A DNA stretch of 64,000 nt. Origin: an uncultured Patescibacteria group bacterium (lineage in GTDB: Bacteria; Patescibacteriota; JACMRA01). Position numbers and translations under genes: made by a program. The notes under the pieces were generated by a model. The model did not search any database and had not been told where the DNA came from. It worked only from the letters and a program-made list of their open reading frames with translations. Each line of letters opens with the position of its first letter. Position 1 is the stretch's first letter. The stretch spans positions 1-64,000 of the forward strand of contig CALITC010000004.1 in assembly GCA_938041505.1 (NCBI GenBank), given 5' to 3'. This document shows positions 27,117 to 35,132 of the stretch, piece after piece.

Positions 27117-29264
27117 ATGCCAAAAAAAACCATCGCCCAAACCCTAGCCAATACTTCAAAAAAAGAAGAGCCTGGTGTCAAAAAATCCTCAGCAAATCGA
27201 AAGAGATTAACCATCGGTTCTGCCAACAAAAATAAGAAAAAGATCCCCAAAATCACCAAGATATTCAAGAAAAAACCCGATGCCAACACTTCGGAGAAGT
27301 CCAAGCAGGCTTTAGAACAAGCCAAAACCCGTCGAGCAATCAAAAAATCTTCGCAAGAACTAGTTACACGCAAAGGTATTCTTGGGCTCAATCTAGTATC
27401 TACCGCAGACACCAATAGACAGCGCGCAATAGAAGATGATCAAATCGAACAACGCGGAAGCAAGAGATACAGGGTATCCGAAGACGGTGTCAAAGTAAAA
27501 ATGAAGAAGATCACCAAAAAGCGTACTTCAAAAACTCAAAACAGACGCCTCAAGAAGTTCATTGAAAATGATGCCTCACTCTACCCAGAGTTCCAAAAAC
27601 AATCCGTTGACTTCCAACAATCTGTAATTAAGATGGTCAAGCAAGGGGTAACCAGAGGGTTCGTTACCGAAGATGAACTTCTGTATCTTATCCCGCGACC
27701 CGAAGAGAACGTAACTTTGGTTGAGGATATCATGGATCTGTGTGAAGACTCTGGATCCCCTGTTAAGTTTGATTCTACTTTGGATGCACTTTGGTCATCT
27801 CTTGAAAACGAAGAAGAAATGAAACGCCGCGAAACCGAATTGGCTTCTAAGCTTAAGAGCTCTATTGGTGATATCTCAGGAGACGATCTCAAAGACGATG
27901 CTGTGCAGAACTACATTCGAGATATTTCCCGCTACCCTCTCCTAACCAAAGACAAAGAAGTCGAGCTTTCCAAAAGAATTGAGCAAGGCGACCAGGCTGC
28001 AAAACTCGCGCTTTGCAACGCCAACTTACGTCTAATCGTACACTCCGCCAAAAAATACATGGGTCGCAACCTAGCTTTCCTTGATCTTATTCAAGAAGGT
28101 AACATCGGTCTTCTCCGCGCTGTAGAGAAGTTTGACTGGCGTCGTGGATACAAATTCTCTACCTACGCTTCTTATTGGATTGATCAGAGTATTCGCCGCG
28201 CCTTAGCTGATCAAAGCCGACCAATTCGTCTCCCAGTCCACGTAGAAGAAAAACTCAACAGATATAAGAAAGAGAAGCGTAAACTCATCGATGAGCTTGG
28301 CCGAGAACCATCTGACGACGAGATCGCAGAGAAGCTAGAGGTGGATATCGACACCATCTACTACTTCAAGAGGATTTCGCAAGATACCGTTTCAATCGAC
28401 ACCATGGTCGGACACAACGAAGATAGCGATACTCAAATCATTGAAACCATCGAAGATGACCGCACTATGGCTCCAATTGACGCTGCTTCCAACAAAGTTT
28501 TGCGCGATTACATGATGAACATTGTTGACGATGTCCTAGAACCACGCGAAAAGAAAGTAATCTTACTCAGGTTTGGACTAGACGGTACTGGAGTTGCTCA
28601 CACCCTCGAGGAAATTGGTGAGGTTTTCCACGTTACGCGTGAACGTGTCCGTCAGATCGAAGAAGTCGCTCTTAACAAAATCAGACAGCATAAAGAAAGC
28701 TTCAAGTTAGTAGATTTCTTAGAAGGTATTCAGCCGCAGACCTTCGCCCCTACTGCTTTCAAGCGTGATGATGATGTCAAGCTCAACATTCAATTCAACA
28801 AAAAGATCGACTTCGAAAAATGTGTCAGCACCATCGTCCAACAAATCCAGGAAAACACCTGCTCCATTTATTTCCTCCGCGGAACCATGGGCACAGGAAA
28901 AACAACACTAGTCCAAGAAATTAGCAAACGGATCGGTGTCAAAGACGAGGTGTCATCTCCAACTTTTGCCATAATGCAAAAGTACGATCTAGAGAACAAT
29001 GCTAGCGCCACCAAAACCCATGAGTTCAAAAAAGTAAGCCACATGGATCTACATCGTCTCAATAAAGAAAAAAATGCGTTGGATGGTGAAATAGGTTGGA
29101 TCGAAGAAGAGCTCACCAATATCGACCAGATCATCTTCGTAGAATGGCCAGATAAGCTCCTCAAAAAACAAGCCGTCATCCAATGGCTAGGCCGCAAACA
29201 CTTAATCATCGAGTGTAAAATAGGTAAAAAAGGAGACCACTACTTCCGAATCAAAGAGCGTTAA
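27117..29264 (+). CDS. rpoD: Sigma-70 factor (RpoD) fused to a C-terminal TsaE ATPase
   Basis: Sigma: DLIQEGNIGLLRAVEKFDWRRGYKFSTYASYWIDQSIRRA, LEEIGEVFHVTRERVRQIE. TsaE: LRGTMGTGKTTLVQEI, SSPTFAIMQKYD, HMDLHRL, EIGWIEE, VEWPDKL. Confidence 0.95.
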   Translation: MPKKTIAQTLANTSKKEEPGVKKSSANRKRLTIGSANKNKKKIPKITKIFKKKPDANTSEKSKQALEQAKTRRAIKKSSQELVTRKGILGLNLVSTADTNRQRAIEDDQIEQRGSKRYRVSEDGVKVKMKKITKKRTSKTQNRRLKKFIENDASLYPEFQKQSVDFQQSVIKMVKQGVTRGFVTEDELLYLIPRPEENVTLVEDIMDLCEDSGSPVKFDSTLDALWSSLENEEEMKRRETELASKLKSSIGDISGDDLKDDAVQNYIRDISRYPLLTKDKEVELSKRIEQGDQAAKLALCNANLRLIVHSAKKYMGRNLAFLDLIQEGNIGLLRAVEKFDWRRGYKFSTYASYWIDQSIRRALADQSRPIRLPVHVEEKLNRYKKEKRKLIDELGREPSDDEIAEKLEVDIDTIYYFKRISQDTVSIDTMVGHNEDSDTQIIETIEDDRTMAPIDAASNKVLRDYMMNIVDDVLEPREKKVILLRFGLDGTGVAHTLEEIGEVFHVTRERVRQIEEVALNKIRQHKESFKLVDFLEGIQPQTFAPTAFKRDDDVKLNIQFNKKIDFEKCVSTIVQQIQENTCSIYFLRGTMGTGKTTLVQEISKRIGVKDEVSSPTFAIMQKYDLENNASATKTHEFKKVSHMDLHRLNKEKNALDGEIGWIEEELTNIDQIIFVEWPDKLLKKQAVIQWLGRKHLIIECKIGKKGDHYFRIKER

Positions 29265-29779: not shown

Positions 29780-31738
29780 CTACAGCACGTTCTTGCGGTT
29801 AACTTCAACAACTTTCAATTTGATTCCAGTAGCTTGAAAATGAAATTGATCTTTGATTTTGTTTTCTAAGAAACGAAGATATGACCAGTGCAAAGTAGTT
29901 TTATCTTTAACCAGCAGTTCGAAAGTTGGTGGTTTGGTATCTGTATAAACCAAGTCATAGATGATTGGTCGCTTTTTGGTACGGAGTTTCTTAGGTGGTT
30001 TTTGCTTCATTAAGTAATTGAACAATCTACGAACTTCAGCTCTAGTTATCAAACGCTGTCGATTGTGCAAAGATAAATCAATCGACTTCCAGATTTTATC
30101 CAAACCTATTTTTTCTTTGGCAGACACCCAGACAAATGTATCCACCTTAAGGAAAGTAAACTTATGAGTAAAGCTACGCATAAAAGCAGTCTTGTCTTCG
30201 TCATCAAGTAGATCAGCTTTATTCACTATTACTACCAGACCATTGCGACTTTGGCGAGCAATCCCTGCTACCACCTGGTCTTGATGGGTAAGGGGCTGCG
30301 ATCCATCTACAATTAGACAAATCACATCGGCTTCGTAGGCAGCTTCCACAGTACGGTTGGTCGCAAAAGTTTCCGCTCCAAACGTACGCTGACCAGGTTT
30401 GCGAATACCGGTAGTATCTAGCAAAATATAGTTCTTATGCCTATGTTGAGTTTCTCCTGTTTTGGGATTGGTATAGAGAACATCACGCTCTAGTAAGTAA
30501 TCGTTGATACTTAGTGTAGTCCCGGCAATATCAGTGACAATTTGCAAATCTTGAGTACTTAGAGCATTAAACAAGCTGCTTTTACCCACATTTGGTTTAC
30601 CAAGCAGAATAATCTTGGGAACCTGAGGAATACGCTCCTCAAAACCGTATTCCATGGCCTCAATGCGATCAGGCAAATAACTCAGACCAAAATCACTATT
30701 GTGCAAAACAGTCCACATTCCAAGCTTGGTTCCAACGTCAATGTTTTCTGGTAAATCATCTACATACAGTGCCTTAGCAAAATCCAAGTCATATTTTTCC
30801 TTCAAAAGTTCATAGATTTTCTCATCGGGTTTGGAATATCCACATTGGCTACTGGTAATCCCTCCAGAAAACAGCTCCGTAACAGCATCCAGGACTTCGA
30901 CACTATCTATCGAATCAGCCTGTGTGTTGGAAATATAGTAGAGCTTTTTCCCAGAATCAACGATGGACTGGAGAACTTCCGCAGATCCAGCGATGAGCTC
31001 GCCTTGAGAATTAACCAACACCCCATAAACATCAACAACCACTGTATCAATTTCGTTGATAGCTGTTCTTGTCGAGTATGATTCAAATAGTGCAGGTTTA
31101 CCACTCTCATCAGTTTCGCGCACAACGGCATAACCGCCTTCTTGACTGCGCACTACCTTTCCCGACTTTGATCTTGTTCGTTTTTGTCTTTTTGTAGATT
31201 CATAATCGTTATTCGTATTTTTAGTAAAACCAAGCTCTTCGCACTTTGTCACCATTGCATCGAGCAACTCATTGAGTCCATATCCATTGGCAGCGCTTGT
31301 GTTAATAAACTCAAACCCACCAAGGCGAGCATATTGATCTATACTATTCTCCTTGTTGGGATCGTCTACCTTGTTAATAACCAGCATATATGGCTTACCT
31401 AATTTCCACACTCTTGACAATATGCTATCAGTAATAGTCTCTGGATTTTGCTTACGGTCGATAACCCAAATTAAAAAATCGGCCTTAGAAAGTGCCGCCC
31501 AACTCTTAACTTGAATTTCTTTCTCAATCTTAGCGTCAGCATCCGGAACCAGCCCACCAGTATCTACCAATTGCATCTCCATACCCTCCCAGTTGACTTC
31601 GGCAAAATTAAGATCTCGGGTGGTGTGCGCTTCTCTAGCTACAATCGCCTTCTTGGTAGAAGTAAGCCTATTAAGCAAAGTGCTCTTCCCAGAATTAGGA
31701 AGTCCAAAGAGCGCAATCAGCGGGAGTTTTTTAGGCAT
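29780..31738 (-). CDS. der: GTPase Der/EngA with inserted HAD-like domain
   Basis: G domain 1 GLPNSGKSTLLNRL; HAD-like VVVDVYGVLVNS...YYISNT...SKPDEKIYELL...ALYVDDLPENI; G domain 2 GKPNVGKSSLFNAL; KH-like C-terminus. Confidence 0.93.
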   Translation of the reverse strand: MPKKLPLIALFGLPNSGKSTLLNRLTSTKKAIVAREAHTTRDLNFAEVNWEGMEMQLVDTGGLVPDADAKIEKEIQVKSWAALSKADFLIWVIDRKQNPETITDSILSRVWKLGKPYMLVINKVDDPNKENSIDQYARLGGFEFINTSAANGYGLNELLDAMVTKCEELGFTKNTNNDYESTKRQKRTRSKSGKVVRSQEGGYAVVRETDESGKPALFESYSTRTAINEIDTVVVDVYGVLVNSQGELIAGSAEVLQSIVDSGKKLYYISNTQADSIDSVEVLDAVTELFSGGITSSQCGYSKPDEKIYELLKEKYDLDFAKALYVDDLPENIDVGTKLGMWTVLHNSDFGLSYLPDRIEAMEYGFEERIPQVPKIILLGKPNVGKSSLFNALSTQDLQIVTDIAGTTLSINDYLLERDVLYTNPKTGETQHRHKNYILLDTTGIRKPGQRTFGAETFATNRTVEAAYEADVICLIVDGSQPLTHQDQVVAGIARQSRNGLVVIVNKADLLDDEDKTAFMRSFTHKFTFLKVDTFVWVSAKEKIGLDKIWKSIDLSLHNRQRLITRAEVRRLFNYLMKQKPPKKLRTKKRPIIYDLVYTDTKPPTFELLVKDKTTLHWSYLRFLENKIKDQFHFQATGIKLKVVEVNRKNVL

Positions 31739-33323: not shown

Positions 33324-35132
33324 TTAGAAATACCCTCTCCAAGATATTAGTGCAGACTCGGTGGCGCTACCAAAATATCCAGTATTCCCACCAGCCCAAT
33401 TAAATGTCCCGGCGCTACGCATACATGCCTGTAATTGCCTCACTCTTTCACTGACTTCACCAGTAACCCATTCTTGTTCTTTCAGACTACTGCATTCGAA
33501 GATAGGAGCTGTGTTTCCTCGCCAGTTATTCAAAGCTTCATTGGTCACCGGACCAAAGTAATTAGTGATATACGGCCAAGTAAAGAATCCTCTATCTTTC
33601 ATGCACTGCTGCAACTCTCGTACTTCATTATTGACCGCACCAAATTCCCATGATTGATCACGCAACTGGTCACAACGATCTACTGGCTTCGGATTAAGCG
33701 CAGCACTCCAACGCGTCAAAGCATCCAGCGTTACCGGGCCAAAATACCCTGTATCACCATAAGGCCATGCAAAGAAACCTCGCTCGCGCATGCAAGACTG
33801 CAACTCTCTAACCTCACCGCTAACATCACCAATCTGCCAAGATTTCACTCGCAATTCTTCACATCGATCAATAGATTCTGGTGCTGGAGCAACCTCAGTT
33901 GCCACCTCTCCCGACTTGCTTGCACGGTAATCTTGGAGGGCTTTTTCTGTGATCGGACCAAAATATCCAGTAGAAGTACTATAATTAAACACACCTTCTT
34001 CTCTTAAGCATTCCTGCAACTTTACAACTTCATCGCCATTTTGACCAATCGTCCAATTCAAATCATACAAATCATCACAAGTAGTTACTTCTGGTGATGG
34101 CTCAGGAGCGGTCTCAGGAGCAGGCTTAACTCCAGCTACTTGGTCTGCACGATAATTCTGCAGAGCATTATCAGTAATAGTTCCATAATATCCTGTAATA
34201 AATAAGTAAGTGTAATAACCCTCTTGTCTTAAGTATTGCTGAATAAGTTCAACCTCATCACTTTGGTCACCAATTTTAAAATCTTTGTTAAGAATATCCT
34301 TAACTTGCTCAAAAGAAACAGTATGCTCTATATCATCTGGATCTATGTCTTTTTCGTAGATATTCACTCGATCAATTTCTTGAGCATCGTAAGTCTGACT
34401 ACTTGTACCCCAACCATTGGCGGTAATAATCTTCCAGAGGTTATAGTTACCCCAGTAGACGTGAGGTGTATAATTATATACAGAAGCTGTTGCCTCATTG
34501 GAAAGCAGTACACTGTACTCGTCTAAAGTAGATATTGTGTTATTAACCTTATACGGAGTGTTAGAGTTGCTATTTCCAGCTCGATTAAAATTATATTGAA
34601 GTTGATAGCTAGACCAGTTCAACTGATTTGCAAGACCAAAATACTGCGTATCGCACTCAGCAAAGTCTGGACATCCATACCCCATTGCCGTTCTAATTCT
34701 CCGCTCTGGATCATTTGCCGTATCGTAATCGGATCGAGATAAAAGAGATTGTTCTTTTTCCAAAAAAGCCAAAAGCATACCCGGATTCAGCCTTGGTGTC
34801 ACCCCATATTTGGAACTGGTGACACCTTGCGAAGCATTCCAAATCCAATAACTTGCAGATTTACCCTGATCTGAATAATCCTTAAGCGGTGAGTTAACCC
34901 GATCCAGATAGCTTTGAATAGAGCTCTGAGAATTAAAAACCCGAGTCGAAGAAAAAGTGCTATTATTAAGAACAAGTTCTTTGGAGAATATAGGAATGCC
35001 GTCATTAACCCCAAGAACACCAGCTTGAGATCCAGAAGTGCTTTGTTGCAATACCAGATACACACCACCTAGTACTACATTCATTAACACAAGTACTGCA
35101 CTTATAATTGATAATTTTTTGTATTTGAACAT
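33324..35132 (-). CDS. Secreted cell-wall protein: predicted muramidase/transglycosylase-like domain plus five peptidoglycan-binding-like repeats
   Basis: N-terminal TM; five repeats of WxxGxxxxEVxxLQxCMRxxGxFxWxxxTGYFGPxTxxAL. Confidence 0.75.
   Translation of the reverse strand: MFKYKKLSIISAVLVLMNVVLGGVYLVLQQSTSGSQAGVLGVNDGIPIFSKELVLNNSTFSSTRVFNSQSSIQSYLDRVNSPLKDYSDQGKSASYWIWNASQGVTSSKYGVTPRLNPGMLLAFLEKEQSLLSRSDYDTANDPERRIRTAMGYGCPDFAECDTQYFGLANQLNWSSYQLQYNFNRAGNSNSNTPYKVNNTISTLDEYSVLLSNEATASVYNYTPHVYWGNYNLWKIITANGWGTSSQTYDAQEIDRVNIYEKDIDPDDIEHTVSFEQVKDILNKDFKIGDQSDEVELIQQYLRQEGYYTYLFITGYYGTITDNALQNYRADQVAGVKPAPETAPEPSPEVTTCDDLYDLNWTIGQNGDEVVKLQECLREEGVFNYSTSTGYFGPITEKALQDYRASKSGEVATEVAPAPESIDRCEELRVKSWQIGDVSGEVRELQSCMRERGFFAWPYGDTGYFGPVTLDALTRWSAALNPKPVDRCDQLRDQSWEFGAVNNEVRELQQCMKDRGFFTWPYITNYFGPVTNEALNNWRGNTAPIFECSSLKEQEWVTGEVSERVRQLQACMRSAGTFNWAGGNTGYFGSATESALISWRGYF

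Follow-up and report, generated by a model that had tools for sequence, protein, structure and literature searches.

A HAD-family domain between the two GTPase domains of Der in six genera of Patescibacteria

Der (EngA) is among the most conserved ribosome-assembly factors and its conformational cycle is driven by interdomain geometry. In an uncultured Patescibacteria group bacterium, the two G domains (G1 and G2) of a Der-like protein are separated by 199 residues that contain a HAD-like domain, which raises the questions of whether this architecture is real, how it arose, and whether the additional domain is an enzyme on which the GTPase depends. Such a whole domain between G1 and G2 is a natural test of how much of the Der geometry is needed, in a phylum whose ribosome-assembly factors are already reduced. 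We refer below to the window as the complete 64,000-nucleotide stretch of DNA analysed (contig CALITC010000004.1, assembly GCA_938041505.1).

The Der scaffold and its inserted domain

The gene occupies positions 29780-31738 of the minus strand (stop included) as one uninterrupted frame of 652 codons with an ATG start, and the plus strand over the same positions is full of stops. A previous sequence-only reading had given these exact coordinates, at which there is indeed an open frame, and had left out the strand. It had also recognised the protein as a Der, which is borne out by a whole-protein score of 338.2 bits on the NCBIfam model TIGR03594 (GTPase_EngA), the curated equivalog cut-off of which is 306.7. 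As in the known Der/EngA proteins (TIGR03594; PDB 2hjg, 4dcs and 3j8g), there are two G domains of the Era type and a KH-like domain, and every motif is in place; in those proteins, however, G1 and G2 are adjacent via a short linker, whereas here the order is G1, the 199-residue insert (residues 173-371), G2 and the KH-like domain. G1 (residues 1-172; 31223-31738, minus strand) carries GLPNSGKST at residue 12, TTRD at 39, DTGG at 59 and NKVD at 122, and gives the Pfam match MMR_HSR1 at residues 8-123. G2 (residues 372-558; 30065-30625, minus strand) carries GKPNVGKSS at 380, TTLS at 407, DTTG at 441 and NKAD at 506, and TIGR03594 matches residues 371-643. The C-terminal KH-like domain (residues 559-652; 29783-30064, minus strand) matches PF14714 at residues 565-642, with 49.6 bits against a cut-off of 27.3. 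Each G domain thus has its P-loop, switch threonine, DxxG and NKxD, and these columns are invariant in the alignment of relatives. Searched against the PDB, both flanks of the protein retrieve Der structures and the middle retrieves HAD structures. All the motif strings quoted in the sequence-only reading were found, and its description of a 652-residue protein with a linker and HAD motifs between the first G domain and GKPNVGKSS is correct. A second enzyme domain fused to Der is also known from the bifunctional cytidylate kinase/GTPase Der (NF007071), but the added enzyme is there a kinase, placed at the N-terminus, whereas the HAD of the window protein lies within Der, between the G domains.

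The insert comprises three parts, all on the minus strand: a basic low-complexity linker with a net charge of +7 (residues 173-199; 31142-31222), a conserved motif GxYxVxRE....G...F (residues 200-222; 31073-31141) and a capless HAD-IA domain (residues 223-366; 30641-31072). The Pfam and NCBIfam scan of the whole protein placed the HAD match roughly at residues 179-345. When the insert was scanned alone, it exceeded the cut-offs of PF00702 (34.5 bits against 26.4), PF13419 (33.8 against 23.8), TIGR01509 (HAD-IA variant 3; 39.4 against 29.4) and PF13344, and scored 50.6 on TIGR02247, below the cut-off of 125.4; the domain search therefore upholds the HAD similarity. A profile built from five inserts found HAD-IA structures in the PDB, the best being the HAD part of drimenol synthases (3.9e-23), with further matches to YihX and soluble epoxide hydrolase. 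AlphaFold2, given an alignment of six HAD homologues from unrelated organisms, modelled residues 220-371 as a HAD Rossmannoid fold (pLDDT 80.6, pTM 0.79), while the single-sequence model of the whole protein reached a pLDDT of 38. The best Foldseek match of the domain model is 2pr7, a 137-residue HAD protein (E 2.2e-8, probability 1.00), and MDP-1 also ranks high. Profile cut-offs, PDB search and predicted fold thus agree with the earlier assignment of the inserted domain to the HAD family.

That reading had added that the HAD motifs look conserved, and in the window protein motifs I to IV are intact (D236-V-Y for motif I, S270 for motif II, K303 for motif III and D327-D328 for motif IV), with the exception of the second aspartate of motif I (DxD), usually the general acid, which is replaced by tyrosine. 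As this aspartate is also absent from 29 of the 31 other family members examined, three of which have tyrosine, DVYGV is a normal form of the subgroup, where DxD is not diagnostic. Only 34 residues separate D236 from S270, so that the C1 helical cap is absent. Because D236, S270, K303 and D327/D328 are kept, the sequence indicates that the domain is probably still a Mg2+-dependent phosphatase, the active site of which, being capless, would be open. TIGR01509, the alpha-D-glucose-1-phosphatase YihX (2b0c, 8pne and 8pno) and the sEH N-terminal phosphatases of TIGR02247 have motifs I-IV and an FDGG-like segment in common with it and match it both by profile and by fold, but the window HAD differs from that group by lacking a cap and by being embedded in another protein. 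In the drimenol synthase AsDMS (9m7d), the top match of the PDB profile search, a HAD of this group is likewise joined to a catalytic domain of an unrelated kind, a terpene cyclase domain with which it is said to share one active site (PMC9128629); in AsDMS, however, the HAD is N-terminal and there is no GTPase, whereas in the window protein it is internal in a GTPase.

Distribution, origin and decay of the insert

We collected the Der proteins of the class to which the window protein belongs from six draft genomes, representing six genera of one family, and found the insert at the same position in all six. The distance from P-loop to P-loop is 368 residues in the window protein and 366, 431, 579, 325 and 433 in the others (the last value, for genome G003, is that of two fragments placed end to end), against a range of 167-198 residues and a median of 177 for the 60 genomes compared from the rest of the phylum. 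Outside the class, among the matches listed, Der frames are 433-537 residues long, with no space for such an insert. Der exceeded the cut-off in 199 of the 382 genomes of the phylum surveyed (0.4-2 Mb), about half being without it, which agrees with the published picture of Patescibacteria/CPR (PMC12641178).

In phylogenetic trees, the Der proteins of the class form one clade (100/100) and so do their HAD domains (85/86), which are separate from stand-alone HADs. Since both form single clades, the simplest history is that of one insertion event in the ancestor of the six-genus class, which the trees make the most likely. The base composition of the insert equals that of the rest of the gene, on which ground a recent horizontal insert was rejected. 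The literature searches turned up no account of a Der with an internal HAD; the HAD-within-Der arrangement is a real architecture of a known protein and, as far as the literature was searched, it is undescribed.

The six inserts differ markedly. Those of the window genome (G000) and G001 hold a capless HAD with the complete motif set, and that of G004 has the complete set and, from motif I to motif II, a longer stretch of the length of a cap. G002 has two tandem HADs, the first with a similarly long stretch between these two motifs and a lysine replacing the nucleophile aspartate, the second with the motif set but with KP changed to KN. Motif I is lost and the active site is absent in G003 and G005, and the G003 insert also has a long acidic stretch; hhalign nevertheless still finds both homologous to the others (98.7% for G003 and 91.0% for G005), with the linker and the motif adding to the score. 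Catalytic residues are therefore kept in one HAD copy in four of the six genera (the window, G001, G004 and G002). As for conservation of the catalytic aspartate and lysine in homologues, which the earlier reading had named as a check, it fails in part of this class: G003, G005 and the first copy of G002 lack the nucleophile aspartate, residues of motifs III/IV, or both. Mean pairwise identity within the class is 60% for G1, 60% for G2 and 56% for the KH-like domain, against 25% for the HAD core; the GxYxVxRE motif reaches 43% and the basic linker 17%. Judged by these alignments, the HAD is evolving much faster than the GTPase domains. G201, R207, E208 and G213 of the motif are invariant among five members of the class; the sequence of the linker is not conserved and its net charge is basic in five of the six genera. 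From the motif losses and the spread of identities, it follows that the catalytic site is not kept throughout the class, whereas the insert itself and its short motif are. The class thus provides a series of HADs (active-looking with a cap, active-looking without one, duplicated, degenerate) in which the passage from enzyme to pseudoenzyme inside an essential protein can be followed.

Possible roles of the insert

We consider it rather probable that the insert is a captured and tethered HAD module, inserted once, probably a phosphatase in the window organism, and tolerated by Der without being needed for its core cycle. A small HAD-IA domain, of the group of YihX and the epoxide hydrolase N-terminal phosphatases, would have entered the linker between G1 and G2 once, in the ancestor of the class. 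G1, G2 and the KH-like domain keep their signature motifs and, by analogy with the family, would ensure the normal role in 50S maturation, and the HAD of the window organism would be a passenger with a candidate phosphatase activity. As the insert persists in two genera that no longer have the active site, catalysis would not be required for the core cycle of Der. The linker, the motif and the HAD body may then be retained for a structural or docking function, or simply because a clean excision is difficult. Two observations from the six draft genomes on which this explanation rests go against a mere passenger: at least part of the insert seems to be selected, as it is kept in all six genera despite deep divergence with a recognisable GxYxVxRE motif in each, and the intact catalytic residues in four genera might exceed what free decay predicts.

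In a second explanation, possible and deserving some credence, the linker, the motif and the HAD body together make an extra contact with the pre-50S particle, for instance in the region of the L1 stalk to which Der binds, or act as a sensor of a phosphorylated ligand without turnover, catalysis being a relic. Retention of the insert in all six genera while catalysis was lost in two, the basic charge of the linker in five of them and the better conservation of the motif than of the HAD would all suit such a role. So would the presence of uL1 in all six genomes of the class and of an ObgE above the cut-off in none, which may leave Der with a larger share of late 50S assembly in this class. Complementary loss of der and obgE, together with co-evolution of der, uL1 and H78, has been described in CPR bacteria, and the state with der and without obgE, which the six genomes show, has been reported for the class ABY1 (PMC12641178). 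Contact with the pre-50S particle is however a prediction only, the HAD is poorly conserved, and a fixed geometry would hardly tolerate either the two HADs of G002 or the long acidic stretch of G003.

HADs of the same group also occur inside unrelated essential enzymes, as we observed with a profile trained on the class. In G229 (L187 1833-5660, plus strand), a valyl-tRNA synthetase of 1275 residues has a capless HAD (DIYGVVV) inserted in the region of its editing domain, followed by a serine hydrolase domain and a histidine phosphatase domain ahead of the KMSKS part. Like the window protein, it comes from this phylum and carries a capless HAD of the same group in frame, here within an essential enzyme of translation, but its host protein and family differ from those of the Der class and it was seen in one genome only. 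In G002 (C23, L239 135-4916, minus strand), a CarB-like carbamoyl-phosphate synthase large chain of 1594 residues has, between its halves, a NUDIX-like stretch, a HAD and a NUDIX domain. Inspected by eye, the other large HAD frames of the phylum look mostly like N- or C-terminal fusions (such as HAD-NUDIX) and not insertions, and no further HAD, NUDIX or histidine-phosphatase insertions were found in 1,084,760 of the 1,124,582 bases of the window's genome. That unrelated essential enzymes can accommodate a HAD of this group weakens a Der-specific reading and speaks for a HAD that Der tolerates. A tentative and rather doubtful suggestion is that the small-genome bacteria of this phylum have repeatedly taken up hydrolase domains of several kinds (HAD, NUDIX, serine hydrolase, histidine phosphatase), in frame, within essential enzymes (Der, ValRS, CarB-like), some of these passengers then decaying to pseudoenzymes or turning regulatory for the host protein. 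If true, captured house-cleaning hydrolases would be inherited along with genes that cannot be lost.

The sequence-only reading had instead proposed a phosphatase activity coupled to ribosome assembly, that is, a bifunctional enzyme whose HAD would dephosphorylate an assembly-relevant nucleotide, rRNA end or phosphoprotein in step with the GTPase cycle. The window protein retains every HAD motif, as such an enzyme would, and G001, G004 and G002 each have one HAD copy that does the same; capless HADs frequently act on macromolecules. A precedent for metabolic input into this GTPase is the cyanobacterial regulator PipX, which binds EngA at the G1 domain and interferes with the function of the protein (PMC8696166). 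One stand-alone HAD gene of the same group, in G019, overlaps der by 4 nt. The catalytic residues are however lost in G003 and G005, and HADs of this group were found within 4 kb of der in only two of the 60 neighbourhoods examined in the phylum (G019 and G143), which is not clearly above the rough chance expectation of about one, based on some one to two HADs of the group in a genome of 1 Mb; proximity to der is for this reason a lead and not a support. Nor do these two HADs group with those of Der, and origin of the insert from a HAD gene adjoining der was rejected, given the rarity of such neighbourhoods and the separation of their HADs in the tree. The part of the proposal that stands is the activity of the window protein itself, which is plausible; coupling across the class is improbable in view of the catalytic losses and the fast divergence of the HAD. 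Overall we regard the coupled enzyme as possible and unlikely: it is not what the comparative evidence favours and is unsupported as a conserved function.

Finally, that assembly or gene calling fused two genes is extremely improbable and was rejected for the window, for although the genomes are drafts and the G003 gene is apparently split over two contigs, six independent genomes share the architecture at the same point, five of them in single uninterrupted frames, and base composition agrees between the insert and the remainder of the gene.

Observations on der loci and on the genes of the window

The gene neighbours of der are not conserved across the class. The order is scpA-scpB-dacA-HAD-der-pth in G019 (L116 3354-5335, plus strand; the HAD gene is the one that overlaps der) and scpA-scpB-HAD-rluB-dacA-der-pth in G143, where all names other than HAD and der were assigned by eye. 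The G003 Der is apparently split within G2, between L032 2851-4512 (minus strand) and L007 1471-2169 (plus strand): one frame ends after switch I (...IEDTPLLSK) and the other starts near MSKITKQYILLDSAG. The halves are complementary and lie mid-contig on different contigs, and no intact copy was found in this genome; the GTPase may be naturally split, or the arrangement may result from a rearrangement or from misassembly.

The window's genome has a second HAD-like sequence (G000, C13, 60073-60587, minus strand) in two frames with a stop between them, a pseudogene or a sequencing error. In the window itself, positions 33324-35132 (minus strand) encode a protein of 602 residues that is hydrophobic at its N-terminus and in which the peptidoglycan-binding domain PF01471 is repeated. 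Positions 27117-29264 (plus strand) encode an RpoD-type sigma factor with a C-terminal fusion to TsaE, the tRNA t6A ATPase: sigma70 regions 1.2-4 are followed by PF02367 at residues 567-683, and the other five genera of the class have near full-length matches to this protein (60-78% identity, in frames of 723-742 residues).
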